Source: Flavobacteriales bacterium
Lineage (GTDB): Bacteria > Bacteroidota > Bacteroidia > Flavobacteriales_E > Vicingaceae
DNA length: 64,000 nucleotides
Reading direction: 5' to 3'
Assembly: GCA_018608405.1 (NCBI GenBank)
Contig: JABAZP010000024.1
Location: 1 to 64,000, forward strand
Of the stretch, positions 10,754-42,483 are shown in pieces. The notes below the pieces were generated by a model that saw only the letters and a program-made list of their open reading frames with translations, was not told where the DNA came from and made no database searches. How positions within the stretch are numbered: the first letter of the stretch is position 1; the number at the start of each line of letters is the position of its first letter. The translations under genes and the position numbers were made by a program.

Positions 10754-10872
10754 TCAATTTTTTTAAATCAATTTGCTACTTGCCAAATCTTTGTTAAAAT
10801 TTTACCATACAAATAATTAGCCATTGTCATTTCGGCAGATATTGTTATTTTCAAATAACTAAAATTAAGCAT

Positions 10873-25957: not shown

Positions 25958-27079
25958 TTATTGAAAAACCCTTACATAATCTACAAACATGTATTGTGGA
26001 AACTGCGTAGAACTATTTGGTGATCCCGGCAAGTCGCCACCTACAGCTATGTTAAACAGGAAAAAAAACTTATTCTGAAACGCACTTAATCCAGACGGTG
26101 TGATGTCCAATGTTTGGTATTTTATATCATCTCTATACCACTCAATCTTTTGACTATCCCATACAATTGAAAATACGTGAAATTCATGTGCAAAAGTTCC
26201 TCGTTGGAGTCTGTTCGTGCCGCCAAACTGAACTCTTGAGCCATTAAACTCCCAGTGAGCCGTTCCTAGTATTTTGTCATCTGTATTGTCACCACCAACC
26301 AACTCCATGATGTCGATTTCTCCGCACGATGGCCAACCTACTGTAGATATATTATCCCCTAACATCCACAAAGCAGGCCACAAACCCTGTCCAAATGGAA
26401 GAGCCGCTCTTATATCTATGCGGCCATACTTGAAGCTCTTTTTATTTTCCGTGGTGATTCGAGACGAAGTGTAGGCACTCGCATTAAAAAATTCCTTCTT
26501 TGCCTGAATAGTTAAAACGCCATTACCCACAGAAACATTTTCTTGTCGATAGTACTGCAACTCATTATTGCCCCAACCACCATTTCCAGTTCCAATTTCA
26601 TAGTTCCAATCTGAAGTTGAGAGTGACGTTCCATCAAACTCATCACTCCATACCAATGTGTAACCAGGGTATGAGACAGGTGTTGTATAACCTGTGGTTG
26701 GTGGTGTTCCATCGTTATTTGGCAAACCGATATAGACAGTAACTTTTACATTCTTCTCTATATAATTATCTCCCGATGCATGAGCCCTAACATTAACGTT
26801 ATATGTTCCTGAAGCATTATATGTATACTCTTCCTCTCCATTTTTAGATTCCTTAGAAACAATATTACTTCCTTCCGTAAAGGTAATTACATAGTAATTT
26901 GCATTTACTGCACTTGACTTAACACTAACCAACCCTTCAACGAGCGTATCCGCATTTACTTCTACCTGCAAATTTGAGGGAAGCACTATTTCAGCTACAG
27001 ACTCTTCCTCTTCACAACCACTAAATAAAAGCAGAATACTACAAGATAAAAAAAATGAAATTGATATAAAAGCCTTCAT
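25958..27079 (-). CDS. GH16 endo-beta-1,3-glucanase (laminarinase-type) lipoprotein
   Basis: A 373-residue surface lipoprotein: a lipobox ending FSGC (Cys22) followed by an acidic EEEE stretch that fits a lipoprotein export signal, a PKD/Ig-like domain (about 30-120), and a GH16 domain (about 140-373). Catalytic residues appear in GEIDIMELVGG (Glu254, Asp256, Glu259), and the region WGNNELQYY is typical of bacterial laminarinases. It would cut beta-1,3-glucan at the cell surface. It lies 1 nt after the PKD lipoprotein gene in the SusCD operon. Substrate assignment rests on subfamily look plus its neighbours (GH17, GH30, phosphorylase). Confidence 0.92.
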   Translation of the reverse strand: MKAFISISFFLSCSILLLFSGCEEEESVAEIVLPSNLQVEVNADTLVEGLVSVKSSAVNANYYVITFTEGSNIVSKESKNGEEEYTYNASGTYNVNVRAHASGDNYIEKNVKVTVYIGLPNNDGTPPTTGYTTPVSYPGYTLVWSDEFDGTSLSTSDWNYEIGTGNGGWGNNELQYYRQENVSVGNGVLTIQAKKEFFNASAYTSSRITTENKKSFKYGRIDIRAALPFGQGLWPALWMLGDNISTVGWPSCGEIDIMELVGGDNTDDKILGTAHWEFNGSRVQFGGTNRLQRGTFAHEFHVFSIVWDSQKIEWYRDDIKYQTLDITPSGLSAFQNKFFFLFNIAVGGDLPGSPNSSTQFPQYMFVDYVRVFQ

Positions 27080-27080
27080 A

Positions 27081-28436
27081 TTACTTCTGCTCTATGTCGT
27101 CTAAGTTATAAGTATCCGTTCCAGTAGTTCCCCAACCAGGAAAAAATACTATACGATCGTATTGGCCTGACGCAGATCCAGTGAAATCTGCCTCATACTG
27201 AATCCACGCAGGAGTTGCCACTAAACTCACATCTACCTCAACGCTATTTTGTGGATCCGTTGTGTCTTCCAATTTTACTCTGCAAGTTCCACCTAAGAAT
27301 GGATTCGTAGAATTAAATAGTTTAAATGCAATTTTTGTATTCGCAGAAAAGTCCAACTTGGAATCTAAATCAACATAAATTCCTGCATCGTTGCTAGCAC
27401 CTTTAATTGTTTCTAAAACATTAGAACTAGTATTCACGCCTACGGCATTGGGATTGTTAACAATTGAGGCAGTACTACCGTTAAAACTTGTGAAACCAGG
27501 ATCTGCACCCTCAAAGTCTATTGGTAATGCAACACCGGTTGTTCCACCGCCGCCTCCGCTAGTAGGAACGTAACCTTCAGGAATCAATCGGATATACCAT
27601 TGTAAAAATGCATTACTAGCATCTGTGTATCTGAGGTATAATTCGTTTTCAGTAAGATTGAGGATTTTATATACCCTAACTCCGGTATAAAACCCCATGA
27701 ATGATCTACCGGAAACAGTAAGCGTTGTATCGACTCCCTTTGTTATGGTCCAATTCTCTCCAATTTGATTGGGTAAAGGAGCAATGTAGTCCTCTGATCC
27801 GCTAATCTGAGTTGCCCCGGGAAAGTTACCAGCTTGTAAGTTATCAATACAAACATTGCCGTTAGTAATCATGTTAAATTGGAATCCCTGCAAATTAAAA
27901 TTGTAACGATCGTCATACATCCCCCAACCGTTATGGTTATTGCCGGGTGCACTATAATCATTTGGTAGATATCCAAAAGCTCCAACTTCACTATAAGTAA
28001 CACCGTAATGCCCTGCATTCGCGGAATCTAAAACCCAAGTTTTTCCATTAACACTATCTATCCCACCAGAAAGAAGTCTAAATAAAGGATCGTTCAGCAA
28101 TGCAAAATCATCCGCAGCTATAACTATACTGTCAGTTCTTTTTGCACTTCCTCCTTTGGTAAATACGGTTAATGTAACTGCATATACCCCTTTGTTTGGA
28201 TACGTTCCAGTTCCAGTTGGGCCTTCGGCACTTGTTCCATTTCCAAAGTCCCAAATTGCCACAACATCAGTACGTGCAGCTTTAAATTCAAGAATATTAG
28301 GACTTGTTGATGAAGCAGAATATGTAAATGCTGCATCTGCCAAGGTCGGCGCAGGACCTAGAGTTGGGTCATCTTCTCTACAAGATGAGAACACCAATAT
28401 TACAGCTGTAACGAGAAATAAAATACTTTTTTTCAT
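27081..28436 (-). CDS. PKD-domain surface glycan-binding lipoprotein (SusE/F position)
   Basis: A 451-residue lipoprotein: lipobox VFSSC (Cys19), a PKD domain at about 30-110 (FEFKAARTD-like start, then WDFGNGTSAEGPTGTGTYPNKGVYAVTLTV), a central domain of about 180 residues with many aromatic residues, and a C-terminal beta-sandwich (about 310-451) resembling the repeats of the protein at 23452 (LPIDFEG..., RVKLEDTTDPQN, YDRIVFFPGWG). It has no enzyme motif. It lies directly after SusD, where glycan utilisation loci usually encode a second surface glycan-binding protein, so that role is inferred. Confidence 0.82.
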   Translation of the reverse strand: MKKSILFLVTAVILVFSSCREDDPTLGPAPTLADAAFTYSASSTSPNILEFKAARTDVVAIWDFGNGTSAEGPTGTGTYPNKGVYAVTLTVFTKGGSAKRTDSIVIAADDFALLNDPLFRLLSGGIDSVNGKTWVLDSANAGHYGVTYSEVGAFGYLPNDYSAPGNNHNGWGMYDDRYNFNLQGFQFNMITNGNVCIDNLQAGNFPGATQISGSEDYIAPLPNQIGENWTITKGVDTTLTVSGRSFMGFYTGVRVYKILNLTENELYLRYTDASNAFLQWYIRLIPEGYVPTSGGGGGTTGVALPIDFEGADPGFTSFNGSTASIVNNPNAVGVNTSSNVLETIKGASNDAGIYVDLDSKLDFSANTKIAFKLFNSTNPFLGGTCRVKLEDTTDPQNSVEVDVSLVATPAWIQYEADFTGSASGQYDRIVFFPGWGTTGTDTYNLDDIEQK

Positions 28437-28448
28437 ATCCTTTATTTT

Positions 28449-29930
28449 TTAATATCCTTGATTTTGGCTCCAATTCCCACCTGCTAATGCAATTTCAATT
28501 TGTGGGATCGCAAATAGTTCATGTTTCCCTACTTGAAATCCACTTATTCTTGACGCAGCCTGTCCGGTTCGTACCAAATCAAAAAAACGATGACCTTCAC
28601 CTGATAACTCATATCTTCTTTCCGCCCATATTGCATCTGTTAGAGCTTGCCCTGCTGCACTTACTGCAGACAGTGACACTCTAGACCGGACCTGGTTCAA
28701 ATAAATCAACGCTTGCCCATCATTGTTCGACCGATTATGTGCTTCTGCTGCCATTAACAAAACATCTGCATACCGTATTACAATGTTATTTACCGGGCTT
28801 GTTAAATCATTATCCGGCAAACCTAATTCCCCTTGTTTTTTGATGTACTTGTTATTGTACAGTCCTGTGTGGCCACCACCTCCAATGGCGTAAGATATAT
28901 TTGCTGGATTCGGCTGCTGTGAAATAAACGAATCTATATCCAAAATTGTTGCATTTCTCCTAATATCGTCTGCAGATTCGAATGAATTGTAAAGGTCTTG
29001 AGTCGGCAGGTTATAGCTATTCCCATCTGAATAAATTGGTCCGGTATATTGACGAATTCCTTGAAACCCAACGGCTGCATTCCCTTCTAGACAAATTAAG
29101 CAATCATAACTTCCCCCTTCTAGTCCGCTATATTGAACGTCAAAAACAGCCTCTGAGTGACCCTCATTACCAACTAAAAACAAATTTCTATAATCACCAA
29201 TCAACTGATACTGCATAGAGTTAATCACTTGGTCTAAATTTACTGCACTTTGTGAGAACTTATTTTGATAAAGTTGAACCTTGCCCAGTAATGCTAATGC
29301 TGCCCATTTATTAACTCTTCCTTTTACAGGATTTACCGGATTCAAATTGGAAGCAGCAAAGCTTAAGTCTGCTTCAATTTGAGCATATACATCAGCAGTG
29401 CTGCTTCTTTTAATTTCTGTTACTTCGTCAGCACCCAATCTCTTATCAATAATTAATGGTACTTCTCCAAAATATTTAACTAATTGAAAATAATAGTATC
29501 CTCTCAAAAACGTAGCTTCCGCCAGAATTTGATCCTTTCCATCAAAATTAATATTGTTCCTATTCTCTAAAATAAAATTAGCTCTGCTTACTCCTGCATA
29601 GTTCCACTGAAATACACTTCTTAATTCCCTATTGACTGCTCCATGTGTCATTGCCTCAATTTCATGCAGTCCTTGAGAGTCGGTAACACTTTCTCCACCG
29701 GCAATAGCATTGTCTGAGGCGATTTCTCCAATCCATAAATTAATAAATGATCCTTGCAGCAAATCGTATGCTCCTATCAATGCTAATTCATAATGGGAAG
29801 GCTCTGTAAAATAGTTATCAGCATCTTGACTAAATGGCGGCTCTAGGTCTAGGAACTTCTCACAAGCTGTTAAAGAAAATAACATTGCAACCAAGACTAT
29901 TCCAATGTTTTTGTAGTTAAACTTTCTCAT
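28449..29930 (-). CDS. SusD/RagB family outer-membrane nutrient-binding lipoprotein
   Basis: A 493-residue SusD-like lipoprotein with lipobox SLTAC (Cys23) followed by EKFLDLEPP, the hallmark start of the family. TPR-like helices follow (AEATFLRGYYYFQLVKYFGEVPLI is a family signature), as does the C-terminal RYADVLLMAAEAHNRSNN...ALIYLNQVRSR and WAERRYELSGEGHRFFDLVRTG. It acts as the lid over the SusC porin and binds the oligosaccharide. It lies 5 nt downstream of SusC. Substrate, beta-1,3-glucan, is inferred from the adjoining enzymes. Confidence 0.95.
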   Translation of the reverse strand: MRKFNYKNIGIVLVAMLFSLTACEKFLDLEPPFSQDADNYFTEPSHYELALIGAYDLLQGSFINLWIGEIASDNAIAGGESVTDSQGLHEIEAMTHGAVNRELRSVFQWNYAGVSRANFILENRNNINFDGKDQILAEATFLRGYYYFQLVKYFGEVPLIIDKRLGADEVTEIKRSSTADVYAQIEADLSFAASNLNPVNPVKGRVNKWAALALLGKVQLYQNKFSQSAVNLDQVINSMQYQLIGDYRNLFLVGNEGHSEAVFDVQYSGLEGGSYDCLICLEGNAAVGFQGIRQYTGPIYSDGNSYNLPTQDLYNSFESADDIRRNATILDIDSFISQQPNPANISYAIGGGGHTGLYNNKYIKKQGELGLPDNDLTSPVNNIVIRYADVLLMAAEAHNRSNNDGQALIYLNQVRSRVSLSAVSAAGQALTDAIWAERRYELSGEGHRFFDLVRTGQAASRISGFQVGKHELFAIPQIEIALAGGNWSQNQGY

Positions 29931-29935
29931 ATTTC

Positions 29936-32900
29936 TTAAAATTTAAAATTAAATCCTCCCATCACTGTTCGAGCTTGGGGATAAAAGCCGTAGTCAACAC
30001 CTGCTGCAAGAGCTCCTCCAACAGATCCAATCTCAGGATCAAATCCTCTGTATTGTGTAACCGTTAAAAGATTATTTACTGAAACGTATAGGCGTATAGA
30101 ATTTGATTTGATCTTTTTCGATAGTTTTTCAGGCAGTGTATACCCTAATTGAATATTTTTAATTCTCATAAAAGCCCCATTTTCAACAAAATAATCTGAA
30201 AACTCTCCATTTCTGTTTGCCTCTGTTGTCAACCTAGGATTATCATTAGAAGTCCCTGTTCCTACCCATCTATCAATAACATAATCTAACTGATTAGCGA
30301 AAGGTTGCTGACGTTCATAGTTTCTAATTATTTCTTGTCCTACTGCGGCAAAAACATTCATTGAAAAGTCAAAGTTTTTGTACTCAGCACTCAAATTTAG
30401 ACCAAAGGTAAAGTCTGGAATAGCAGAACCAATTTCTTTACGATCCGAATCATCATTGAAACTGATTACTCCATCTCCATTTTGATCCACATATCTAATA
30501 TCTCCCGGCTTTGCACCTTCCTGAACCACTGTAGCGTTATCGATTTCTTCTTGTGACTGGAAAATTCCATCCGTTTCAAATCCATGGAAATAACCAATTG
30601 CAAAACCTTCTTCAAACCTAGTAGCAACTCCTCCACCAACTCCAAAAGCAGCTCCAGGAATGAATTCAACACCGTCCGGTGTTTTAAGCACTTCGTTTCT
30701 CAAGTAGGTTGTGTTAAAGTTAATTGCATATTTCAACTCCTTATTACGATCTGAATAATACGCTAATTCTAACTCAATACCCTTATTGGATACATCTCCT
30801 GCATTTACAATTGGAGATTGCCCCCCTGGACCAGTCGTTCCTAATATACCGGAGACCTCTGGCTGAAATAATAAATCCTTTGTATTCTTGATAAAATAGT
30901 TTGTTGTGATGTTAAAATTATCCCCTATTACTAAGTCTAACCCTAAATTGAATTGACGCGTACTTTCCCATTTCAAATCAGGATTTGAGGCTCTACCAAT
31001 AGCAACACCTTGCACAATCACGTCATCAAAAACGTATACACCTTCACCATCAAGCTGAGCTCGATAAGCAAAGTTTTGAATTTGATCATTCCCGGACACT
31101 CCATAACTTCCTCGTAGTTTTGCAAAAGTTATTTTTTCGAACTTAAAGAATTCCTCTTCTGAAATTAACCAAGCTGCTGAAACAGTAGGAAATGTTCCAA
31201 ATCTATTATTAGGACCAAACTTCGATGAACCATCTCTTCGTATTATTACAGAACCTAAATATTTTCCCTTAAATCCATACTCCCCCCTAAAGAAGGTCGA
31301 TAATAAGCGCTCTTCGAATTCGAAAGAACCTGTATTATTTAGAAACCCTCCAGGTGCGAGATTTGCAGAAATATCAGCAAAATCGACTGAATTGCCTGGA
31401 ATATTAAAGGCTGAACCATTCAGTTGATTTCCTGTCCGCTGAAATACGGAAACTCCGATGGTTCCTTTTACAGAGTGATCTTCGTTAAATATTCGGTCAT
31501 AGTTCAGGTAACTCTCGCCGTTCAAATCCACAAAAGTAGATCTCGATTCAAATACGCTTGCTCCTCTATCAATGAATACGCTGTCTGCAATTTCTACCCT
31601 TGTTGGATCTAAATTAGCATTCAACGCTGTATTCTGTGCTTTTCCTTGTCCGTACCAAACTAAAGGAGAAAATGCTTTAAAATCTACAGAAGCATAATTA
31701 TAATTTAGACGATTAGTAAATGTAAAATTGTCGTTAATTTCAAATACTAATTCCTCTTTTCCAACAATTTTATTTACAATTGCCTGGTTTTGGCTATTCT
31801 CTATTTGTGCTAATGGATTAATTATATCACTCACCTCCTCTAAATAGGAGTAATTCCCGTCTGCTGTTTTCACAGATTCATTTGGGAATGCATTTATCGT
31901 ATTATATAAAACAGAGCCAATTCCATTCTCTGGCAGTGCTCGTCTCTTTTCGTTAGTATACAAAATAACTGAATTCAACTTCACTTTGTCATTTAATTGA
32001 TTTCCCAAATTCAAGCGAGCATTAATCCGTTCAAAGTTAGATTTATCGCCACCTACGATTCCATCTTGTGTGAAATACGACGCACCTGCCGAGTATGTAG
32101 AATTTTTATTACCACCTAAAACTGAAAAATTGTAATTCTGGATTAAAGCAGATTGAAAGACTTCATCTTGCCAATCGGTTCCTTCCCCTATGGATGTATT
32201 GCCAAATGGAATTGCATCTCCGGCTGATCCAAATATTTCATTTTTGATAACTGCATACTCGGTTGCATTCAATAAATCTAATCTTCTAGCCGTATTCTGC
32301 ACACCTAAATAAGAGCTAAACTCAACCTTTGGAGCTGAATTTAGAGCTCCCTTTTTGGTCTCAATTATTATAACCCCGTTTGCGGCTCTCACCCCATAAA
32401 TACCGGCCGTTGCATCTTTCAGAACATTTACAGAGGCGATGTCATTGGGGTTTAGTGCATTCAAGCCTTCTGAATCATAAACAACACCGTCTACTAATAT
32501 TAAAGGATCATTATCTCCAAAAGTTGAAAGCCCTCTAATTCTAATGCTTGACGCTCCACCAGGTGAACCAGAATTTGTATTAATCGCTACACCTGACACT
32601 TGTCCTTGTAATGCTTGGTCTACTCTTGCAACATTTAATTTTTCAACCTCTTCACCACCAACTTGACTCGTTGCGCCTGTTAATGTTTTCTTTGTTGAAG
32701 TTCCATATCCAACAACAACTACCTCGTCAATTTCTTTACTAGCTTCCTTTAAGACAATGTCAATCTTCTTTCGACCTGCTACTGCAATTTCCTGAGTAGC
32801 ATAACCCAAATAAGAAAATTTTAGAATAGCTGTCTTCAGATCCGATACCTTAATCAAATAATTTCCATCAATATCTGTGGCGACTCCATTTGTAGTCCCT

Positions 32901-33031
32901 TTAACAATAACACTAGCTCCAGGAATTGTGAAGCCGTCACTACCTTTTACCTGTCCGGTAATTGTGCCCTCTTGACAAAAGGTGTTACCCCAGATCATAA
33001 ACGAAGCTAGAAAAAATAAATATCTCATCAT
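29936..33031 (-). CDS. SusC/RagA TonB-dependent outer-membrane receptor
   Basis: A 1031-residue receptor: signal peptide (1-19), a carboxypeptidase-D-like beta-sandwich (about 20-100; GTITGQVKGSDGFTIPGASVIVKGTTNGVATDIDGNY), a plug domain with VVVGYGTSTKKTLTGA and the SusC signature GSPGGASSIRIRGLSTFGDNDPLILVDG, then a 22-strand barrel ending in an aromatic residue (GGFNFKF). It imports oligosaccharides using TonB energy. First gene of the minus-strand arm, divergent from the Nudix regulator. No obvious TAnnTTTG box was found in its upstream region. Confidence 0.96.
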   Translation of the reverse strand: MMRYLFFLASFMIWGNTFCQEGTITGQVKGSDGFTIPGASVIVKGTTNGVATDIDGNYLIKVSDLKTAILKFSYLGYATQEIAVAGRKKIDIVLKEASKEIDEVVVVGYGTSTKKTLTGATSQVGGEEVEKLNVARVDQALQGQVSGVAINTNSGSPGGASSIRIRGLSTFGDNDPLILVDGVVYDSEGLNALNPNDIASVNVLKDATAGIYGVRAANGVIIIETKKGALNSAPKVEFSSYLGVQNTARRLDLLNATEYAVIKNEIFGSAGDAIPFGNTSIGEGTDWQDEVFQSALIQNYNFSVLGGNKNSTYSAGASYFTQDGIVGGDKSNFERINARLNLGNQLNDKVKLNSVILYTNEKRRALPENGIGSVLYNTINAFPNESVKTADGNYSYLEEVSDIINPLAQIENSQNQAIVNKIVGKEELVFEINDNFTFTNRLNYNYASVDFKAFSPLVWYGQGKAQNTALNANLDPTRVEIADSVFIDRGASVFESRSTFVDLNGESYLNYDRIFNEDHSVKGTIGVSVFQRTGNQLNGSAFNIPGNSVDFADISANLAPGGFLNNTGSFEFEERLLSTFFRGEYGFKGKYLGSVIIRRDGSSKFGPNNRFGTFPTVSAAWLISEEEFFKFEKITFAKLRGSYGVSGNDQIQNFAYRAQLDGEGVYVFDDVIVQGVAIGRASNPDLKWESTRQFNLGLDLVIGDNFNITTNYFIKNTKDLLFQPEVSGILGTTGPGGQSPIVNAGDVSNKGIELELAYYSDRNKELKYAINFNTTYLRNEVLKTPDGVEFIPGAAFGVGGGVATRFEEGFAIGYFHGFETDGIFQSQEEIDNATVVQEGAKPGDIRYVDQNGDGVISFNDDSDRKEIGSAIPDFTFGLNLSAEYKNFDFSMNVFAAVGQEIIRNYERQQPFANQLDYVIDRWVGTGTSNDNPRLTTEANRNGEFSDYFVENGAFMRIKNIQLGYTLPEKLSKKIKSNSIRLYVSVNNLLTVTQYRGFDPEIGSVGGALAAGVDYGFYPQARTVMGGFNFKF

Positions 33032-33291
33032 AATTATTTGATTTTAAGGAGACAAAACAAACAAATAGAATCTTTTAGTTCATTTTACCATAACAATAGT
33101 AATAACTTTATTTTAAAATTCCTTAACAGTTATTAAAAAAATAAGTTGTGATACATCGACTAACGAATCAATAAAATTAACTTAAGTAATTGATATTTAT
33201 ATTAAAACAGAATGCAATCGAACCAAAATAATTTATTCCAAAAAAATGAGAAACATTAAGACCCTATCTTTTTTGACTTACTTAAGAATGC

Positions 33292-33299
33292 TATCTTTG
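33292..33299 (+). promoter_or_regulatory. -7 box (TATCTTTG) for the Nudix regulator
   Basis: An exact TAnnTTTG match lies 30 nt before the ATG at 33330. A TTTG at 33272-33275 gives a spacing of 16 nt, close to the 17-23 nt normally seen in this phylum. Confidence 0.6.
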
Positions 33300-33329
33300 C
33301 CCTCCAAACGTTTTTGAGAAATCTGATTT

Positions 33330-34082
33330 ATGAACAAAAAAAGATCTTCTTCGACAGAAGATATTTTAGGACACCAATTTGGGGCCTTTTATAAAATTCC
33401 AATAGAAAAATTCTTTCAGTTTGCACTTTCCGTTGATTGCGTAATTCTAGGTTATCACGAGAATGGTTTAAAACTTCTTATGATTGAAAGAGGAACTGAG
33501 CCTCACAAAGGTAAAAAGGCATTGCCCGGAGATCTAGTTTACCCAACTGAAGATATGGAGTTGGCTGCCGACCGAGTTTTAAAGGACCTAACTGGCTTAG
33601 AAGATGTGTACATGACCCAGTCAAAATCGTATGGTCAGGTTGATCGACATCCAATCGGAAGAGTTGTTACAGTAGGCTATTACTCTTTAATTAGTGTAGA
33701 TCGGTATCAGCCACTAGCCAGCTCATGGGCATCTAACGTAGTGTGGGTTGATGTAAAAGAACTTCCCCAACTTTCCTTCGATCACAATCAAATTGTCGAC
33801 CAAGTACTTACAACACTCCGGGAACGAGTCCGGCTGCAACCAATAGGGTTTGAGCTTCTCCCAAAAAAATTTACTCTTGGCCAGTTACAAGAACTATACG
33901 AGGCCATATTGAACACAACCTTCGATAAAGCCAACTTTAGGAAAAAAATATTGGGAATGAACCTACTTAATGACACAAAAGAACTCCAAACCCAAGTCTC
34001 TCATCGCCCGGCAAAACTGTTTTCATTCGACAAAGACAAATACGAAAGCTTATTAAAAAAAGGCTTTAGCTTCGAAATGTAA
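33330..34082 (+). CDS. Nudix-related transcriptional regulator (NrtR/AraR-like)
   Basis: A 250-residue protein with an N-terminal Nudix fold (about 30-165) and a C-terminal winged-helix domain (about 175-250; FTLGQLQELYEAIL...FRKKILGMNLL). The Nudix box starts at Gly67 and keeps Glu74 and Arg82, but the catalytic REUxEE is changed to RVLKDL, so hydrolysis is unlikely. This two-domain design with a dead or altered Nudix box is that of NrtR and of the Bacteroidota sugar regulator AraR. It lies between the two arms of the glucan locus, so it is the natural candidate for their regulator, sensing a sugar or sugar phosphate. The ligand is unknown. Confidence 0.85.
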   Translation: MNKKRSSSTEDILGHQFGAFYKIPIEKFFQFALSVDCVILGYHENGLKLLMIERGTEPHKGKKALPGDLVYPTEDMELAADRVLKDLTGLEDVYMTQSKSYGQVDRHPIGRVVTVGYYSLISVDRYQPLASSWASNVVWVDVKELPQLSFDHNQIVDQVLTTLRERVRLQPIGFELLPKKFTLGQLQELYEAILNTTFDKANFRKKILGMNLLNDTKELQTQVSHRPAKLFSFDKDKYESLLKKGFSFEM

Positions 34083-34192
34083 TATTCTTAAATCAAGACA
34101 GCTTACCGGTCTCATCGGTATTATTGACCGCTGAAAAGTTTTCGAATTTGTCAAATCAAAACCCCTTATTGTAAATATTACTTTAAGTGTCT

Positions 34193-34200
34193 TATATTTG
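34193..34200 (+). promoter_or_regulatory. -7 box (TATATTTG) for zwf and the catabolic operon
   Basis: An exact TAnnTTTG match with a TTG at 34169-34171, spacing 21 nt, gives the best two-part promoter in the window. It ends 6 nt before the zwf ATG, so the transcript may start at or next to the start codon. Confidence 0.6.
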
Positions 34201-34206
34201 TTTCTG

Positions 34207-35709
34207 ATGAAAAACCTTGCCTCAGAAATTAAAACACACTTCGATCTCGTCATATTTGGTGGAGATGGAGATTTGTCGTTCAGGAAAATATACCCTGCAT
34301 TATACTACAGATTGCTTGAAAATCAAATTAGTACAGATGATCGAATATTAGCATTAGCTAGAAAGAAGCGAACAAATGAAGAATTTGGAGCTGTTCTGAA
34401 AGTAGAGTTAAGTAAACATGTTGAGAGTCTTAATGAGAAAATTTTAACCGATTTATTGTCCATAATTACCTACGAGGTAGTTGACATAAATAATTCAAAA
34501 GAAGCAACCGGCATTAAAAAGTATTTTAACAAAACAGGAGATAGAGTTCGTGCCTTTTATTTGGCTACTCCTGCAAGTATATTTGGTCAAATCTCTTCTT
34601 TTCTACATGAACTTGGTTTAATTAACGACAATTCTAGGGTCGTATTGGAAAAACCATTAGGCACAGACTTAATAAGTTCTGAAGAAATAAACGTTAAAGT
34701 TGCTCAATACTTTAAAGAAAGTCAGATCTATCGAATCGACCATTATTTGGGTAAGGAAACTGTTCAGAATTTAATGGTTTTGCGGTTTGCAAACAATATT
34801 TTTGAACGCTCTTGGAATGCTCAAGAAATTGACAACATACAAATTACTGTAGCTGAGTCATTAGGTGTTGGAACAAGAGGGAATTTCTATGATAAGTACG
34901 GTGCATTAAAGGACATGGTTCAAAACCATCTTTTACAACTCCTTTGCTTGATAGCTATGGAACCTCCTATCACACTAGACGCAGATCAGGTGAGAGATGA
35001 GAAGTTAAAGGTTTTAAAAGCCTTAAGACCATTTACAAAAGAAACAATTTCTACAGATACCGTTAGAGGTCAATATACTAGAGGCAAGACTAAAGAAGGT
35101 CATCTTCCCTCTTATCTAGAAGATATCGATAAATATGACTCTAGCACCGAAACTTTTGTAGCCTTAAAAACATATATCGATAATTGGAGATGGGGCGGAG
35201 TCCCAATTTATTTGAGAACAGGCAAGAGATTGCCGCATCGTTTTTCAGAAATTGTAATTAACTTCAAACACGTCCCCCACAATATATTTCCTGAAAAAAA
35301 GGACATCGATAATAATAAGTTGACAATTCGATTACAACCAGAAGAAAGAATTGAACTACAACAGATGGTAAAAATTCCTGGACCAGGAGGATACCGTTAC
35401 AAACCATTTTCTTTAGAATTAGATTATGCGGATCACTTTAACGACCGCTTTCCAGATGCCTATGAACGACTTTTAATGGATGTAGTTCGAGGAAATCAAA
35501 CACTTTTTATGAGACGAGACGAAGTAAAGGCGTCTTGGGAGTGGGTTGAGTCTATTCTAAAAAACTGGAAATCAGAAAAGGTTCCCAATATCTTATATGA
35601 AGCAGGGACAAAAGGCCCGGGAGATCTAATTATGGATGAAGCTAGAAACTGGGTAAAGTCTCGGCATGTAATTAAAGTTCAACAAACAAAAAAAGCAGAT
35701 GAAGACTAG
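34207..35709 (+). CDS. zwf: Glucose-6-phosphate 1-dehydrogenase
   Basis: A 500-residue enzyme that oxidises glucose-6-phosphate to 6-phosphogluconolactone with NAD(P)+. The N-terminal dinucleotide-binding loop reads IFGGDGDLSFRKIYPALYYRLL, and the substrate/active-site signature RIDHYLGKE (catalytic His region) is intact. ATG 34207 is preferred to the TTG at 34198, which lies inside the promoter box. It heads a ten-gene operon and overlaps pgl by 11 bases. Its placement with edd and eda shows it feeds the Entner-Doudoroff route. Confidence 0.96.
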   Translation: MKNLASEIKTHFDLVIFGGDGDLSFRKIYPALYYRLLENQISTDDRILALARKKRTNEEFGAVLKVELSKHVESLNEKILTDLLSIITYEVVDINNSKEATGIKKYFNKTGDRVRAFYLATPASIFGQISSFLHELGLINDNSRVVLEKPLGTDLISSEEINVKVAQYFKESQIYRIDHYLGKETVQNLMVLRFANNIFERSWNAQEIDNIQITVAESLGVGTRGNFYDKYGALKDMVQNHLLQLLCLIAMEPPITLDADQVRDEKLKVLKALRPFTKETISTDTVRGQYTRGKTKEGHLPSYLEDIDKYDSSTETFVALKTYIDNWRWGGVPIYLRTGKRLPHRFSEIVINFKHVPHNIFPEKKDIDNNKLTIRLQPEERIELQQMVKIPGPGGYRYKPFSLELDYADHFNDRFPDAYERLLMDVVRGNQTLFMRRDEVKASWEWVESILKNWKSEKVPNILYEAGTKGPGDLIMDEARNWVKSRHVIKVQQTKKADED

Positions 35710-36373
35710 ATCTGAGTTAGAAATAGAACTTGCAACTTTAATTTGCCAAAAGTTAGAAGGGTCAATTAAAGATCATGGTCAAGCTAGTCTATTAGTATCC
35801 GGAGGTTCAACTCCAATTCATTTATTTCACCTGCTTTCAACGAAAAATATTGACTGGAATAAGGTTACTGTTGTGCCGGTAGATGACCGTTTTTTGCCAG
35901 ATGGACATCCCGACCAAAACGGTACGTTAATAAAAGAAAGATTACTCATTAATAATGCTTCAAAGGCTAATTTCATCCCTTTGGTTGTGAATTCAACAGA
36001 TGCTCAATTAAACTTAGAATTAGTTGAAAATACAATTGCAAAGATTGTTCGACCATTTACAGTTGTTATTTTAGGAATGGGTGCAGATGGGCATACTGCA
36101 TCTCTCTTTCCAAGCTGCAAAGAATTGCAGCTTGGGCTAAACTTGAACAATACGGATAGTCTGATTATAACCAATCCTACAACCGCTCCCTATCAGCGTA
36201 TCTCCTTTACTAGAAGTGCGCTTTTAAATACTGAAAATTTATACCTTCATTGTTATGGAGAAGAAAAAAAAGAAATATTAGATGCATTGGAGGTGAGTAC
36301 TGAAAAAGAGTATCCAATCAAAGCATTTATCAATCAAAATAATATTAAACCAGAAATATTCTGGAGTAAATAA
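35699..36373 (+). CDS. pgl: 6-phosphogluconolactonase (DevB type)
   Basis: A 224-residue enzyme of the glucosamine-6-phosphate isomerase-like fold that hydrolyses 6-phosphogluconolactone. Family motifs are SLLVSGGSTPIHLF near the N-terminus, VPVDDRFLPDGHPDQNG, and the signature VILGMGADGHTASLFP. The ATG lies within the last codons of zwf, and edd begins 4 nt after its stop, so expression is coupled. Length is typical. Confidence 0.94.
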   Translation: MKTRSELEIELATLICQKLEGSIKDHGQASLLVSGGSTPIHLFHLLSTKNIDWNKVTVVPVDDRFLPDGHPDQNGTLIKERLLINNASKANFIPLVVNSTDAQLNLELVENTIAKIVRPFTVVILGMGADGHTASLFPSCKELQLGLNLNNTDSLIITNPTTAPYQRISFTRSALLNTENLYLHCYGEEKKEILDALEVSTEKEYPIKAFINQNNIKPEIFWSK

Positions 36374-36377
36374 CACC

Positions 36378-38180
36378 ATGAATAAAACGATAGTAGAAAT
36401 AACTAGACGAATAAAGGAACGATCGAAAGCATCTAGGAAAGAGTACTTAGATTTGATGAAAACCGTTCACAACAATAAAGTAACAAGGGCTGATTTAGCT
36501 TGTGGAAATTTAGCTCATGCATTTGCCGCATGTGCAGATGACGAAAAGGTAGATTTAAGTGCAGAAGTAAAATCAAACTTAGCCATTATAACAGCATATA
36601 ATGACATGCTAAGCGCTCACAAAACCTATGAAGACTATCCACCAAAGTTAAAAGCTTCCGCTAAAAAATACGGTGGAGTTGCTCAAGTTGCCTCTGGAGT
36701 TCCGGCCATGTGCGACGGTGTGACACAAGGGCAAGCAGGAATGGAGCTTTCACTTTTTAGTAGAGATGTTATTGCGCTTTCTACTGCAGTTGGTATGTCA
36801 CATCAAATGTTTGATGGAGGTTTATGTTTGGGAATTTGCGATAAAATAGTGCCAGGAATGATGATTGGTGCGCTCCGGTTTGGTCATTTGCCTTACATTT
36901 TTGTACCAGGTGGTCCGATGGAATCAGGAATTACGAATGATGAAAAAGCTCAATTCAGAAGAGACTATGCGGATGGGAAAATTGGAAGAGCAGAGCTATT
37001 AAAAGCTGAATCTGCATCATACCACTCTGCAGGAACTTGCACGTTTTACGGAACTGCGAACAGTAATCAAATGTTAATGGAGATTATGGGAGTTCATCTC
37101 CCCGGCGCTTCATTTATTACTCCCGGAACTGAGTTAAGAGAAAAGCTAAATGACTATGCTGTAAAGCGTTTGTTGGAAATTACTCCTCAAAAAGAAAGCT
37201 ATACCCCGCTTTACGAAATAATTAGCCCTGAAAGCATTGTAAATGCATTAGTTGGTTTAGTAGCTACAGGTGGTAGCACTAATCTCACCATTCATATTAT
37301 TGCTATCGCTAAAAGTGCCGGAATAATTGTGAATTGGGACGACTTTAATGATGTTTCTGATGTGGTACCATCCATCACAAAAGTATACCCAAATGGCACT
37401 GCAGATATTAATCACTTCCAGGCATGCGGAGGAATGGGTTTCCTAATGAAAACTTTGAATGACGGAGGATTCTTAAACAGTAATGTGAAAACAAATATGG
37501 GCGATGGCTTGGAACATTACTTTAAAGAACCATTTATTGAGAATGGAGAATTGAAATGGAGACCTGTACCGGAAAATTCGCTCGATGAAAATATTTTAAG
37601 ACCTGTTAATAACCCTTTTACCAGCACAGGAGGACTGAAAGTTTTAAAAGGCAACCTTGGACGTTCTGTAATAAAAATTTCAGCAGTTAAGCCTGAACAC
37701 AGGTATGTGAAGGCTAAGGCGGTTGTATTTGATGATCAGGATGAAGTAATTGCAGCATTTAAAAGAAAAGAATTAAATAAAGATGTGGTAGTTGTAGTAA
37801 AAAATCAAGGAGCTCATAGTATTGGAATGCCTGAACTTCATAAACTTACTCCAACGCTAAGTCTACTTCAATTTGCAGGCCATCGCGTTGCGCTTGTTAC
37901 AGATGGTAGAATGTCAGGAGCATCAGGAAAGGTTCCTGCGGCAATTCACTTAAGTCCTGAAGCAGCGAAAGGAGGAATGATTTCTAAACTACAAACTGGT
38001 GATTTCATTGAATTAGATCCTGAAAATGGAATTTTAAACTGTTTAAATATTGAAGAAGTTGAGGCCAGAGAAAGCAACTTGGCAGAAAATCAAAATTCAT
38101 ACGGTGTAGGTAGAGAACTCTTTAATCAACTAAAAACATTGGTTAGCGAAAGTGAAGAAGGAGCATCATTTATAATTTAA
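36378..38180 (+). CDS. edd: Phosphogluconate dehydratase
   Basis: A 600-residue IlvD/Edd family iron-sulfur dehydratase that converts 6-phosphogluconate to 2-keto-3-deoxy-6-phosphogluconate. Cluster-binding cysteines appear in GVPAMCDGVTQG, CLGICDKIVPG and SAGTCTFYGTANSNQ. The length and the neighbours (pgl before, eda after) favour Edd over dihydroxy-acid dehydratase IlvD. The C-terminal domain contains VTDGRMSGASGKVPAAIHLSPE. Gaps to neighbours are 4 and 3 nt. Confidence 0.95.
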   Translation: MNKTIVEITRRIKERSKASRKEYLDLMKTVHNNKVTRADLACGNLAHAFAACADDEKVDLSAEVKSNLAIITAYNDMLSAHKTYEDYPPKLKASAKKYGGVAQVASGVPAMCDGVTQGQAGMELSLFSRDVIALSTAVGMSHQMFDGGLCLGICDKIVPGMMIGALRFGHLPYIFVPGGPMESGITNDEKAQFRRDYADGKIGRAELLKAESASYHSAGTCTFYGTANSNQMLMEIMGVHLPGASFITPGTELREKLNDYAVKRLLEITPQKESYTPLYEIISPESIVNALVGLVATGGSTNLTIHIIAIAKSAGIIVNWDDFNDVSDVVPSITKVYPNGTADINHFQACGGMGFLMKTLNDGGFLNSNVKTNMGDGLEHYFKEPFIENGELKWRPVPENSLDENILRPVNNPFTSTGGLKVLKGNLGRSVIKISAVKPEHRYVKAKAVVFDDQDEVIAAFKRKELNKDVVVVVKNQGAHSIGMPELHKLTPTLSLLQFAGHRVALVTDGRMSGASGKVPAAIHLSPEAAKGGMISKLQTGDFIELDPENGILNCLNIEEVEARESNLAENQNSYGVGRELFNQLKTLVSESEEGASFII

Positions 38181-38183
38181 GCA

Positions 38184-38762
38184 ATGGGAAATCAATCAAT
38201 CTATAAAATATTAAAGAATAATCCTCTGGTTCCCGTTGTTACCTTCAACAAAGAAGATGACCCTGAAGATTTTATGGATTATTTAATCAAGCGTAACGTT
38301 TTTTGTATTGAAATCACTTTACGAACAGAATATGGCTTGAAAGCCATTGAGTTGTTAAAAAAGAAATTCAGTGATACAATTCAAGTTGGTGCAGGAACGG
38401 TTATTAGCTCCTTACAGGTAAATCAATTAAAATCAATAGGTGCAGATTTTATGGTAAGTCCAGGCTTAACTGTTGATTTATTCGAATGTATGATAAACTC
38501 GAAAATCCCATTTCTGCCGGGAGTTGCTACTCCAAGCGAAATAATAAAGGCTCAAGAATTAGGATTAGAATACCTTAAATTTTTTCCAGCTAATTTATAC
38601 GGAGGAATTGATGCTTTAAAAATGTTTGGAGGTTTATTTCCAGCCTTGAAGTTTTGCCCGACCGGAGGAATATCAGAAGCAACAAGCCAAGAGTATTTAG
38701 CGCTGAACAACGTAATAGCAGTAGGTGGATCTTGGTTTCAAAAAAACTATAAAACAAAATAA
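38184..38762 (+). CDS. eda: 2-dehydro-3-deoxyphosphogluconate (KDPG) aldolase
   Basis: A 192-residue class I aldolase that splits KDPG into pyruvate and glyceraldehyde-3-phosphate. The Schiff-base lysine is in YLKFFPANLYGG, the catalytic Glu in CIEITLRTEYG, and the phosphate-binding FCPTGGIS and AVGGSWF loops are present. Size is slightly short (usual about 205) but complete. The kinase gene starts 2 nt after its stop. Confidence 0.95.
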   Translation: MGNQSIYKILKNNPLVPVVTFNKEDDPEDFMDYLIKRNVFCIEITLRTEYGLKAIELLKKKFSDTIQVGAGTVISSLQVNQLKSIGADFMVSPGLTVDLFECMINSKIPFLPGVATPSEIIKAQELGLEYLKFFPANLYGGIDALKMFGGLFPALKFCPTGGISEATSQEYLALNNVIAVGGSWFQKNYKTK

Positions 38763-38764
38763 AG

Positions 38765-39670
38765 ATGACAGCAATTGCAGAAAGCGGCTCAACCAAGTGT
38801 GAATGGGTTATCTTAAACGATGAAGGTTTAGTAGAAAGTAATTTTAAAACACAAGGGTTTAATCCTGACTTTCATAGCACCGAATACGTAGCTGAAACAC
38901 TTAGTCAGTGTGTTGATTTATTTGCTTCGAAAGATAAAATAAAAAACGTCTATTTCTACGGGGCCAGTTGTTCTAGTGCAAAATTAAAGCAACGAATTGT
39001 TAATGGCTTAATACAGGTATTCAGAAATGCAGAAATCGTTGTTGACCATGACCTTTTGGCAGCTGCATATTCTTTATATGATGACCAACCACTTATTAGT
39101 TGCATAATAGGCACTGGGTCCAATTCATGTTACTTTGATGGAGAAAACTTAATTGAAAAAATTCCTGCATTAGGTTTTGTAATGGGAGATGAAGCGGGCG
39201 GTGGATATTTCGGAAAGCAACTTTTATCTGACTTTTTTTATAAAAGACTACCACAAACCATACATGAAGATTTTGAAGCTACCTACCAATTAACTTGGGG
39301 GGAAGCTAGGGAAAAGATTTATGGCAACATACATGCGAATGTTTACCTAGCATCTTTCATGCCTTTTATAGCGAAACACAAACAAGAGAAATACGTTATC
39401 GACTTATTAAGTGATGGCTTTGCCAAATTTATTAAAATCCATGTAGGTTGTTTTTCAGAATACAAGTCTAAACAAGTTGGATTCGTGGGAAGTCTCGCCT
39501 TTATTTTCAAGGACATTCTAATTGAAGAATTAAAAAAACAAGGTTACAAACCCGGCAGAATAATAAAGAGCCCAATCAATGAATTGGTAAATTATCATCG
39601 TAATTACTTAAATATTTTATCGGACACTAAGAGCGAAAAATTAAAAAGTGCTAAAGGATTCGAGGCTTAA
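38765..39670 (+). CDS. BadF/BcrA-type sugar kinase (N-acetylglucosamine/glucose kinase-like)
   Basis: A 301-residue ASKHA-fold kinase. The phosphate-1 loop reads AESGSTKCEW, phosphate-2 is CIIGTGSNSCYFDG, and GFVMGDEAGGGYFG matches the family of Bacteroidota proteins usually annotated N-acetylglucosamine kinase. Position between eda and GH17 suggests it phosphorylates glucose released from beta-glucan to glucose-6-phosphate for Zwf; GlcNAc or glucosamine remain possible. The C-terminal 15 residues (SDTKSEKLKSAKGFEA) extend past the usual end. GH17 starts 1 nt downstream. Confidence 0.82.
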   Translation: MTAIAESGSTKCEWVILNDEGLVESNFKTQGFNPDFHSTEYVAETLSQCVDLFASKDKIKNVYFYGASCSSAKLKQRIVNGLIQVFRNAEIVVDHDLLAAAYSLYDDQPLISCIIGTGSNSCYFDGENLIEKIPALGFVMGDEAGGGYFGKQLLSDFFYKRLPQTIHEDFEATYQLTWGEAREKIYGNIHANVYLASFMPFIAKHKQEKYVIDLLSDGFAKFIKIHVGCFSEYKSKQVGFVGSLAFIFKDILIEELKKQGYKPGRIIKSPINELVNYHRNYLNILSDTKSEKLKSAKGFEA

Positions 39671-39671
39671 G

Positions 39672-40937
39672 ATGAATTATTTCATTAAAATATCTTTGTC
39701 ATTTATAGTTTTGGCTGTGCTGTCTTGCTCTACCCCTGCAGACAAGACAACAACAAAAGACATTATGACTGCAGAAGACATTTTAGGGAATCCAAATTTT
39801 CAGGCAATCTCATTTGGTGGATACAGAGAACAGACGAGAAAGTTGTGCCCTTCCATTGAAGAGTTAAAGGAGGACATGAAAGTTTTATCCGCTATTGATA
39901 TTAAAATTATTCGGACCTATTACACTCAACAGTTTCCACATGCTGAAAGAGTGTTGCAAGCAATACGCGAATTAAAGCAAGAAAATCCCTCATTTGAAAT
40001 GTACGTGATGTTAGGTGCTTGGATTGAATGTGACCAAGCATTTACTCCATTCCGCGATCATTCGAAAGAAAACTTTAAACAAAATCGCGCTGAAATAAAT
40101 AAAGCAATTGAACTCTCAAAAGTGTATCCCGATATTATTAAAATTATAGCGGTTGGGAATGAATCAATGGTGCATTGGGCAGAAATGTATTCAGTATATC
40201 CTAAGGTTATTTTAAACTATGTAAAGCAACTTCAAAAACTAAAGAAAGAAGGAGAACTAAGTTCAAACCTATGGATTACCAGTTCAGATAACTTTGCCTC
40301 TTGGGGGGGCGGTTCAGCGGAATATCATTCAAGTCACTTGTCTGAATTGATTAAGGTTGTTGACTTTGTTTCAATGCATACCTACCCATTTCACGATACG
40401 CATTACAATTCGGAGTTTTGGGAATTTGACTCGTTGGGTTCTTCAAAAAGCAAGATTCAACATGCAAAAGAAGGAATAATAAGAGCTAAGGATTACGCAA
40501 TTTCACAATATGAGTCAACTAAGAGGTACGTCCAATCTATCTCACCAGAAAAACCCATCCATATTGGGGAAACAGGTTGGGCAACTTCTGACCATACCAA
40601 ATATGGAGCTAAAGGATCACATGCGGCGGATGAGTTCAAACAGAAATTGTATTATGATTACATGAGAGAATGGTCAAATGAAAATGAGCTATCTTGCTTC
40701 TTTTTTGAAGCTTTCGATGAGCCTTGGAAAGATACTAACGATATCAACGCTTCTGAAAACCATTTTGGTCTTATAACCACGAGGGGTAAAGCCAAGTATG
40801 CATTGTGGAGCGCTGTAGACTCAGGTAAATTTGCAGGGCTTACTCGAAATGGAAATCCAATTTCAAAAACATATAGCGGGAACGAAAAAGAATTATTCCA
40901 AACTGTTTTAATTCCCTCCAAAAAACTAACAAACTAA
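39672..40937 (+). CDS. GH17 beta-1,3-glucanase-like lipoprotein
   Basis: From ATG 39672 this is a 421-residue lipoprotein with lipobox VLSC (Cys19). The (beta/alpha)8 GH17 fold shows ISFGGYREQTRKLCPS at strand 1, the acid/base in VGNESM (Glu164), HTYPFHD, and the nucleophile in IGETGW (Glu300). Bacterial GH17 enzymes cleave or transfer beta-1,3-glucan chains. Because it follows only 1 nt after the kinase gene, the upstream ATG at 39648, inside that gene, is rejected. Cellular side: periplasm or outer membrane. Confidence 0.92.
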   Translation: MNYFIKISLSFIVLAVLSCSTPADKTTTKDIMTAEDILGNPNFQAISFGGYREQTRKLCPSIEELKEDMKVLSAIDIKIIRTYYTQQFPHAERVLQAIRELKQENPSFEMYVMLGAWIECDQAFTPFRDHSKENFKQNRAEINKAIELSKVYPDIIKIIAVGNESMVHWAEMYSVYPKVILNYVKQLQKLKKEGELSSNLWITSSDNFASWGGGSAEYHSSHLSELIKVVDFVSMHTYPFHDTHYNSEFWEFDSLGSSKSKIQHAKEGIIRAKDYAISQYESTKRYVQSISPEKPIHIGETGWATSDHTKYGAKGSHAADEFKQKLYYDYMREWSNENELSCFFFEAFDEPWKDTNDINASENHFGLITTRGKAKYALWSAVDSGKFAGLTRNGNPISKTYSGNEKELFQTVLIPSKKLTN

Positions 40938-40944
40938 AACCCCC

Positions 40945-42483
40945 ATGTCTAAAAAAGTAATTTTAATCGCATTCGTAGTTTCTTTAGGTGGTTTTCTATT
41001 TGGTTTTGATGCAGGTATTATTTCAGGTGTAATGTCTTACGCAGGTCCTGAATTTGATTTAAACGACTGGCAGTCGGGTTGGGTGGTAAGTTCGCCATCC
41101 TTCGCGGCAATGATTGCCATGTTGCTAGCAGGGAGACTTAGTGACATTATAGGCCGTAAGAAAATATTGATTGTAGTAGCATTTTTGTATGCTGTATCTG
41201 CTCTTTTTTCAGCATTTGCCTATTCTTATGAGATGCTTTACATAGCTAGAATGATTGGAGGCGTTGGGTTTGGTGCAGCCTTAGTTCTAGCCCCTACTTA
41301 CATTGCTGAAATTTCTTCTGCGAAAAATAGAGGAAAGCTTGTTTCATTGCAACAACTAAACATCGTACTTGGCTTCTTTGCAGCCTTTCTAAGTAATTAT
41401 TATTTAAATAAAATTAATACCTCAGGAAGTGACTTATTTACCGACGAGACTGTTTGGAGATGGATGTTGGGCATTGAGTTTTTCCCGGCTATTCTTTATT
41501 TTATATTCATGTTTTTCGTTCCTAAAAGCCCCCGATGGTTGTATACAAAAAATATGGTTGAAGAAGCAAAAGTGATTTTAAATAGAATTTACGGAACAGA
41601 AATAGCTTCTGAAGAAATTAAAGCTATTGAAAACGCTACAAAATCAAAAGACGATTCAAAGGTTTCGCTTTTATCATTACTCAAACCTTCGTTAAGGTTT
41701 ATTCTCTTAGTTGGTTTAGTAATTGGAGTATTACAACAAATAACAGGAATAAATGCTGTATATTTTTACGCAACTTCAATATTTAAGCAAACAGGTATAG
41801 GCACCGATGCTGCATTTTCTTCAGGAGTACTACTTAGCTTTATTACCGTTTTATTCACCTTTGTTGCAATCTTTTTAATTGATAAAATGGGTAGAAGACC
41901 CTTACTGTTAATTGGAATTGCGGGGGTATCAATAAGTTTGATCCTTTGTGCATATGGCTTTAATGAGGCAACTTACAAATTAACAGAGCAAGACCTTCAA
42001 GAAATTGAGTTAACAGGTATGGAAGCCAGTCAATTGTCATTTGCTGTTGACAAGGTCTATGAAAATGATTTAGATTTTAAAAATGATATGAAAGCCTCCT
42101 TGGGGACACAGCTTTATGCAAAAAATGAAGGTGCCATTCTAGAATATGCAACAACTATTAATGCAACTTTAATATTGTTTGGAATTCTTGGATTTATTGC
42201 CTGTTTTGCCTTTTCACTTGGACCAGTGATGTGGGTTCTGCTTTCAGAACTATACCCAATTAAATATCGAGGTCTAGCAATTGGTGCAATTGGATTTGTA
42301 AACTCTTTCACGAGCTGGTTGGTTCAGCAGGTTTTTCCGTGGGAGCTATCTAATTTAGGTAATGCGCTAAGTTTTTTAATATTTGGATTGATAGCCCTTG
42401 CTGGGTTTATTGTCTTATTGAAAATTTTACCGGAAACCAAAGGCAAGTCTCTTGAAGAAATTGAAGCAAAATATGTAAAGTAA
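40945..42483 (+). CDS. MFS sugar porter (sugar:H+ symporter type)
   Basis: A 512-residue inner-membrane transporter with 12 predicted helices. Sugar-porter motifs are visible: GRLSDIIGRKK (loop 2-3), KNRGKLVSLQQLNI (loop 4-5), PKSPRWLY, GVLQQITGINAVYFYATSIF (helix 7 sugar-binding QQxxGxN), DKMGRRPLL and PETKGKSLEEIE at the end. An insertion of about 60 residues sits before helix 10 (TEQDLQEIELTGMEASQ...), as in other Bacteroidota members. It probably brings glucose or a short glucan into the cytoplasm for the kinase or phosphorylase. Confidence 0.93.
   Translation: MSKKVILIAFVVSLGGFLFGFDAGIISGVMSYAGPEFDLNDWQSGWVVSSPSFAAMIAMLLAGRLSDIIGRKKILIVVAFLYAVSALFSAFAYSYEMLYIARMIGGVGFGAALVLAPTYIAEISSAKNRGKLVSLQQLNIVLGFFAAFLSNYYLNKINTSGSDLFTDETVWRWMLGIEFFPAILYFIFMFFVPKSPRWLYTKNMVEEAKVILNRIYGTEIASEEIKAIENATKSKDDSKVSLLSLLKPSLRFILLVGLVIGVLQQITGINAVYFYATSIFKQTGIGTDAAFSSGVLLSFITVLFTFVAIFLIDKMGRRPLLLIGIAGVSISLILCAYGFNEATYKLTEQDLQEIELTGMEASQLSFAVDKVYENDLDFKNDMKASLGTQLYAKNEGAILEYATTINATLILFGILGFIACFAFSLGPVMWVLLSELYPIKYRGLAIGAIGFVNSFTSWLVQQVFPWELSNLGNALSFLIFGLIALAGFIVLLKILPETKGKSLEEIEAKYVK

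Follow-up and report, generated by a model that had tools for sequence, protein, structure and literature searches.

A regulator of the NrtR family at a laminarin and Entner-Doudoroff locus of Flavobacteriales, and its predicted operators

What does a protein with a damaged Nudix domain sense, and which genes does it control, when its gene stands between a glucan uptake system and a route of sugar breakdown? The question is raised by a stretch of 64,000 nucleotides from a Flavobacteriales bacterium (called the window below), in which such a gene separates two divergent arms, one headed by susC and lying wholly on the minus strand, the other headed by zwf and lying wholly on the plus strand (Table 1). 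Laminarin is a major marine carbon pool. Matches of the GH17 gene and the phosphorylase gene to solved structures lead to the reading of the arms as a laminarin locus that includes its own Entner-Doudoroff route; Pfam gave no match to the GH17 gene at 0.001. It is held here to be probable that the gene encodes a glucose-relieved repressor of the NrtR family, of the AraR type, that governs both arms. Confidence is limited because a shuffle test cannot separate the operator forms, and because the pocket residues are common to NAD-type proteins.

Table 1. Genes and predicted control elements of the locus, with positions in the window
Feature	Position	Strand	Remark
Repetitive secreted protein, type IX sorting tail	23452..25815	-	left-arm end
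GH16	25958..27079	-	left arm
PKD-domain protein, likely surface glycan binding	27081..28436	-	function inferred
SusD-like glycan-binding protein	28449..29930	-	
SusC-like TonB-dependent transporter	29936..33031	-	first left-arm gene; by sequence reading
Predicted degenerate operator TTATGGTAAAATGAACTAAAA	33073..33093	-	about 42 nt from susC start
Candidate -7 element TATCTTTG	33292..33299	+	regulator's own promoter
NrtR/AraR-family regulator, 250 aa	33330..34082	+	degenerate Nudix about 31-155, winged helix about 170-246
Predicted operator TTATTGTAAATATTACTTTAA	34166..34186	+	overlaps -33-like TTG (34169-34171) and zwf promoter spacer
Bacteroidetes-type -7 element TATATTTG	34193..34200	+	zwf operon
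zwf, glucose-6-phosphate dehydrogenase	34207..35709	+	by sequence reading
pgl, 6-phosphogluconolactonase	35699..36373	+	by sequence reading
edd, 6-phosphogluconate dehydratase	36378..38180	+	by sequence reading
eda, KDPG aldolase	38184..38762	+	by sequence reading
BadF/BcrAD-type sugar kinase, probable glucokinase	38765..39670	+	21.1 bits, below Pfam cut-off 31.5
GH17	39648..40937	+	matches solved GH17 6fcg, E 7.5e-148
MFS sugar transporter	40945..42483	+	
GH16	42490..43686	+	right arm
GH30	43683..45182	+	
Beta-1,3-oligosaccharide phosphorylase, 1154 aa	45191..48655	+	matches 6hq6, E 0

Family, fold and the altered Nudix box

By its sequence, the product of the reading frame belongs to the NrtR family. 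Pfam places a NUDIX domain at residues 33-155 (E 6e-7, 29.9 bits against a cut-off of 21.1), NrtR_WHD at 173-233 (E 2e-26, 92.2 bits against a cut-off of 27) and AraR_C at 170-246 (E 6e-16, above cut-off), and the succession of a Nudix domain and a winged helix proposed in the preliminary description is borne out by all three models. The closest solved structure is that of BtAraR (5bs6; phmmer, E 2e-51), with SoNrtR second. An AlphaFold2 model, built with an alignment of 60 of 81 proteins, has a mean pLDDT of 87.3. Its top six Foldseek matches are chains of BtAraR, with TM scores of at most 0.84 by target length, and among PDB entries both the arabinose-free and the arabinose-bound forms of BtAraR rank ahead of SoNrtR. 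A single NrtR-type protein was found in the window's genome, which is 93% complete.

The Nudix signature is given as GX5EX7REUXEEXGU in the accessible text of its source (PMC4666351). Compared with it, the regulator lacks an intact hydrolase signature and reads D68-x5-E74-x7-R82, followed by V83, L84, K85, D86, L87, T88, G89 and L90. The catalytic glutamates are replaced (E83V, E86D and E87L), and the earlier statement that RVLKDL stands in place of REUxEE is correct. Glu74 and Arg82 are kept, as had also been claimed, whereas the supposedly retained Gly67 only precedes the box: the box glycine corresponds to position 68, which is Asp here.

The loss of the glutamates is no sequencing accident, since residue 83 is Val or Ile and residue 87 is Leu in all 63 'glucan-type' proteins, a label coined in this analysis for the Ala201 proteins of Bacteroidota (17 in the window's own group, 20 Crocinitomicaceae-like, 7 in the group of L017-L021, L024 and L043, and 19 Cryomorphaceae-like). 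The same constancy makes it exceedingly improbable that the protein is a Nudix hydrolase with residual activity, even though the protein retains the fold and 61 of the 63 have Asp or Glu at residue 86.

Recurrence of the gene with glucan loci

Of 106 relatives found, 80 were kept, and 74 (L002-L075) were taken as Bacteroidota. In the flanks inspected, which reached 8 kb at most and were often shorter at contig ends, at least one homologue of the window's glucan genes is present at 47 of the 74 Bacteroidota loci, susC and susD homologues together at 36, and zwf or edd at 11. A divergent susC, as in the window, is found at 15 loci (L002-L014, L016 and L042), while at 19 of the 20 loci L045-L064 the regulator lies before susC on the same strand. 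This association with SusCD/GH16 loci of laminarin type, in either gene order, is a new computational result, and so are the predicted operators, the pairing at residue 201 and the exact copies in other genomes described below. Other neighbours are a Na+/solute symporter (L025, by Pfam; L035, by reading, and also L006, L009 and L013, by reading, where a GH3-like gene is adjacent too), a GH3 gene (L034), and weakly GH2-like and outer-membrane-like genes (L018 and L020; by reading, L024 and L043).

In a set of 46 genomes from the window's order, which all belong to one family, 6 have the regulator (E <= 1e-30) and 5 have susD (E <= 1e-60), all 5 within these 6; edd (E <= 1e-100) is found in 7, namely the 6 with the regulator and one other. 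The genome that has the regulator and lacks susD is fragmented (about 380 contigs) and matches L005, whose contig stops inside susC. By this co-occurrence, the regulator, the polysaccharide utilisation locus (PUL) and the Entner-Doudoroff genes are mostly present or absent jointly. Separately, as six of the seven genomes with edd are those with the regulator, the Entner-Doudoroff pathway itself seems to be brought in along with the laminarin cassette.

In a tree of 48 rows, in which 45 of the 80 loci are included, the window's regulator clade takes up 33 rows with support of 98/96, and BtAraR, on a long branch, lies outside it. By sequence, then, the regulator's branch is distinct from BtAraR.

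Two further points concern the sample itself. L015 has two copies of the regulator (7962-8714 and 10507-11262) with a secreted protein in between. The titles of L030, L050, L051 and L066 name Aquiluna, Polynucleobacter or Chryseobacterium gleum, while their regulators resemble those of uncultured Flavobacteriales; they are probably mislabelled metagenome-assembled genomes.

Predicted operators and residue 201

The preliminary description had named the two gaps beside the regulator (33032-33329 and 34083-34206) as places where it might bind, and comparison of orthologous loci does yield a predicted operator in each. The predicted palindrome, TTAT-N-GTA-N5-TAC-N-ATAA, is 21 bp long and has the spacing of the AraR operator. 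An alignment of the nrtR-zwf gap from nine loci (L006 and L008 being excluded for their intervening genes) contains a single conserved island, which reads TTATTGTAAATATTACTTTAA in the window; TATATTTG and the ATG of zwf come after it. The Bacteroidetes -7 consensus is TAnnTTTG. As the ATG at 34207 is only 6 nt past this element, the zwf mRNA may be leaderless; the listed TTG start at 34198 falls inside the element and, on this reading of the sequence, is probably wrong. In the nrtR-susC gap of loci with the co-directional order, the same palindrome occurs twice in 13 of 19 cases and once in 6, and the weaker form in the window sits in a block conserved among close relatives. No operator was found in the window next to the TATCTTTG of the regulator itself; other clades have sites 52-162 nt before nrtR.

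When up to 2 mismatches were allowed, the degenerate pattern matched the window 5 times against a mean of 2.6; as a count this does not exceed chance, 15 of 100 shuffles reaching it. Only the two matches with 1 mismatch are notable, by their location: they are exactly the two operators of Table 1, both imperfect, with 3 and 4 of 10 pairs asymmetric. In a test with local dinucleotide shuffles (300 per locus), which is partly circular in that the pattern was partly derived from the same loci, the best palindrome was equalled by at most 5% of shuffles at 56 of 69 Ala201 loci (50 of 63 glucan-type and 6 of 6 NAD-type Microbacterium loci), these loci being related and hence not independent events; in the window it was equalled by none of 300. 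The AraR-type pattern also passes at 41 of the 69 Ala201 loci, and of the 10 Arg201 loci, 3 pass with the Ala-type pattern and 6 with the AraR-type. Since the two patterns share most positions, the test shows the class of palindrome and not which form is present. At 14 of the 63 glucan-type loci no site was found in the stretch examined, 12 of these belonging to the Cryomorphaceae-like group (n = 19).

In the accessible text of PMC4666351, Lys179, Arg180, Asn181, Lys184, Lys204 and Arg205 of BtAraR contact DNA and are absolutely conserved among AraR orthologues. They correspond to K200, A201, N202, K205, H225 and R226 here, such that the recognition residues Lys179, Asn181 and Lys184 are kept and the set is incomplete, Arg180 and Lys204 being replaced. 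The operators differ as well, AGTGT in BtAraR against ATNGTA here; when the left half is aligned by its centre with the BtAraR crystal operator, as far as the source gives it, the two agree at positions 8, 6, 5 and 4 and differ at 7 and 3.

Arg180 of BtAraR, which corresponds to residue 201, intercalates in DNA within the GTGT element, according to the accessible part of the same source (PMC4666351). At residue 201, the glucan-type and Microbacterium proteins have Ala, whereas L044, L065-L072 and L074 have Arg and L073 and L075 have Gly. When position 7 of the operator was counted in sites with at most 2 mismatches, positions 6 and 7 being left free, countable sites were present at 49 of 69 Ala201 loci (49 of the 63 glucan-type) and at 5 of 10 Arg201 loci. 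Position 7 of the left half is T in 47 of the 49 and G in 5 of the 5. Over both halves, the Ala201 loci are T-type in 89 and G-type in 2 of 98 cases, against 3 and 7 of 10 for the Arg201 loci, where the right half has A and not C in 3 of 5 sites and where L072 was counted on a poor, probably spurious site tied with a clear AGTGTA palindrome. The 54 loci are related and so do not count as independent events, but the pairing points to this very protein as the one that reads the palindromes, and would give a specificity rule in a family with few solved DNA complexes.

Some Arg201-type relatives have neighbours of another kind. A BadF-type kinase homologue is nearby in L065, L069 and L072, L065 is also near a phosphofructokinase and GH65, and L070 is near GH94. 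The neighbours in L065, L069 and L072 suggest that a sister regulator governs the use of alpha-glucan or maltose.

Probable ligand, sign of control and possible targets beyond the locus

The residues that contact arabinose in BtAraR, given as Arg34, Arg86 and His131 in the accessible text of PMC4666351, are kept as R54, R106 and H152. They are also present in the NAD-type Microbacterium proteins and so do not, by themselves, indicate a sugar. R54, D68, R106, H107, F150 and H152 occur in all 63 glucan-type proteins, while in the Arg201 group Asp68 is found in 7 of 10 and His107 in 1 of 10. Phe36, Gly48 and Phe49 of the BtAraR pocket are Thr, Asp and Leu here.

SoNrtR (3gz5, 3gz6 and 3gz8), an ADP-ribose-responsive repressor of NAD genes, has the same fold and domain order as the regulator, and the nearest NCBIfam model is likewise that of an ADP-ribose repressor (NF050029), at 133 bits far below its cut-off of 400. 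The regulator might therefore be an ordinary NrtR of NAD metabolism that is merely located here, but this is very improbable. The ADP contacts of SoNrtR, Asn43, Lys76 and Arg98, are replaced by Thr56, Leu87 and Ile109 (in an alignment through AraR), which disfavours ADP-ribose as the ligand; the target genes are others, no NAD gene lies beside the regulator in the window, and the linkage to a glucan locus holds across lineages. The Microbacterium relatives are placed elsewhere in the tree, with SoNrtR, on long branches.

The neighbouring symporters, sugar kinase and glucan enzymes make free glucose the best guess at the ligand, with about an even chance. HexR-type control of the Entner-Doudoroff pathway has a phosphorylated intermediate as its effector, and the same regulator and operators could answer in this way to glucose-6-phosphate, glucose-1-phosphate, 6-phosphogluconate or KDPG. 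These are metabolites that enzymes of the regulated operon would produce and consume, its phosphorylase would yield glucose-1-phosphate, and the conserved R54, R106, H107 and R111 could hold a phosphate. Against this, R54, R106 and H152 match contacts to unphosphorylated arabinose in BtAraR, as far as these are described, and relatives adjoin the Na+/solute symporters noted above. By pocket comparison, phosphorylated ligands appear less likely than a free sugar, and a phosphorylated effector is considered rather unlikely overall.

Family, fold, loss of the catalytic residues, synteny, conserved palindromes and covariation with residue 201 are supported by computation. The earlier view of a ligand-sensing regulator over a laminarin and Entner-Doudoroff locus stands as far as family, fold, synteny and the predicted operators in both gaps carry it. 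The rest of the preferred reading, a glucose-relieved repressor, is drawn by analogy with BtAraR: that the protein is a dimer, that it represses, that glucose is its ligand, and how the DNA is released. Without inducer, the dimer would lay its winged helices on the 21-bp palindrome over the -33 element and spacer of the operon zwf-pgl-edd-eda-kinase-GH17-MFS-GH16-GH30-phosphorylase, and on the degenerate copy before susC, so that both arms would be off or low. Once laminarin is degraded, free sugar, most likely glucose, would enter the cytoplasm and settle in the former Nudix pocket, held by Arg54, Arg106, His152 and perhaps the clade-invariant Asp68 and His107. Its binding would turn the winged helices and release the DNA, and uptake, hydrolysis, phosphorolysis and the Entner-Doudoroff route would be induced jointly.

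Across the whole genome, the degenerate pattern at 2 mismatches has 112 matches, against 150 for a reversed control; as it is not enriched, a regulon defined by pattern alone was rejected. Among the matches listed, 12 places in the window's own genome have 0 or 1 mismatch. Five are intergenic and precede a start codon, namely that of zwf, of susC, of pckA and of two genes whose products are read as secreted; seven lie within or at the edge of reading frames. A scan of 36 genomes for the exact consensus found 6 sites, spread over 5 of the genomes, while the reversed control gave 3. These sites lie before nrtR-GH (L112), 36 nt before a GH17 gene (L114; by Pfam and PDB, with a second GH17-like gene next to it by reading), before two alike secreted proteins (L115 and L116), and before the orthologue of a secreted protein (L117) whose copy in the window's genome (L084; 72% identity) also has a site; L113 has no clear target. 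An exact operator precedes the one orthologue of the C10 secreted protein among 15 genomes searched. No glucan role is claimed for the C10 protein, its likeness to the protein at the end of the left arm residing mainly in the sorting tail. The stretch upstream of pfkA has no site (the best has 4 mismatches), and control of pfkA by the regulator was rejected on this ground.

In L114-L116 the site and an imperfect -7-like element are arranged much like those of zwf, and in L084 and L117 the site comes immediately after TATATTTG; both placements agree with repression through blocking of the polymerase. The sign of control cannot be read off sequence, and a ligand-bound regulator might instead recruit polymerase at both arms. 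Such activation is quite improbable, as the sites of L084 and L117 and the overlap of the zwf operator with the -33 element and spacer fit occlusion, and as arabinose is a negative effector of BtAraR binding in the accessible text of PMC4666351.

The predicted pckA site (G000:C27:199090-199110, L082) lies 148-168 nt before the start of the gene, which encodes PEPCK by Pfam, and about 65 nt upstream of a TACCTTTG element. It is one of two perfect matches to a broader pattern in the window's genome, among the matches listed. The site is present in this genome, G001 and G003, where 20 of its 21 columns are identical and the sequence upstream of it has diverged; 27 of 338 windows of the alignment are equally conserved, including the site's own overlaps and stretches near the gene. 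It is absent in the congener G004, and the contig of G002 ends there. The 15 more distant genomes have no pckA site with 2 mismatches or fewer, and three of them (L101, L104 and L110) have one with 3. A pckA operator as a general feature was therefore rejected. Separately, in L106 and L110, which have several NrtR-like proteins, palindromes of the AGTGTA type (the AraR form) lie 114 and 139 nt before pckA, which hints at control of this gene by an Arg201-type paralogue.

A wider proposal is a Cra-like switch built on the Nudix fold and travelling as one cassette, in which the apo form would repress laminarin uptake and the Entner-Doudoroff route and activate pckA. It is considered unlikely; if true, free glucose would flip the cell between glycolytic and gluconeogenic modes. 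Cra itself is of the LacI family and unrelated to the regulator. In E. coli, Cra (FruR) represses zwf and edd-eda and activates pckA (accessible text of PMC4393010); similar targets are predicted here, the pckA site in three genomes only.

Among known systems, BtAraR (BT0354; 5bs6, 5dd4, 5ddg and 5deq) is alike in domain order, fold, dead Nudix box, operator spacing and the three pocket residues, and AraR too governs SusCD loci, as far as its source relates. AraR is clustered with arabinose genes, the present regulator with laminarin and Entner-Doudoroff genes instead. AraR and XylR of Bacteroides are described as NrtR-family sugar regulators in the accessible text of PMC4666351, and XylR (BT0791), the xylose regulator, likened here by description only, is also a sugar-type NrtR beside catabolic genes. 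Given these published cases, and the 74 Bacteroidota loci with relatives gathered here, a Nudix regulator of a glycan locus is not as unusual as had been suggested earlier. The locus does differ from the beta-1,3-glucan PUL of Bacteroides uniformis, which is alike in SusC, SusD, a second glycan-binding protein and GH16, but is run by a hybrid two-component sensor rather than a soluble Nudix-type regulator, and for which the accessible text names no Entner-Doudoroff operon (PMC7157763).

Searches of the open-licence literature for laminarin with NrtR or with Nudix, and for a Nudix-type glucan regulator, returned no paper. The family is known, but the branch looks hitherto undescribed for control of laminarin use. 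If the preferred reading is true, a soluble, sugar-sensing repressor couples an outer-membrane glycan system to the Entner-Doudoroff pathway.
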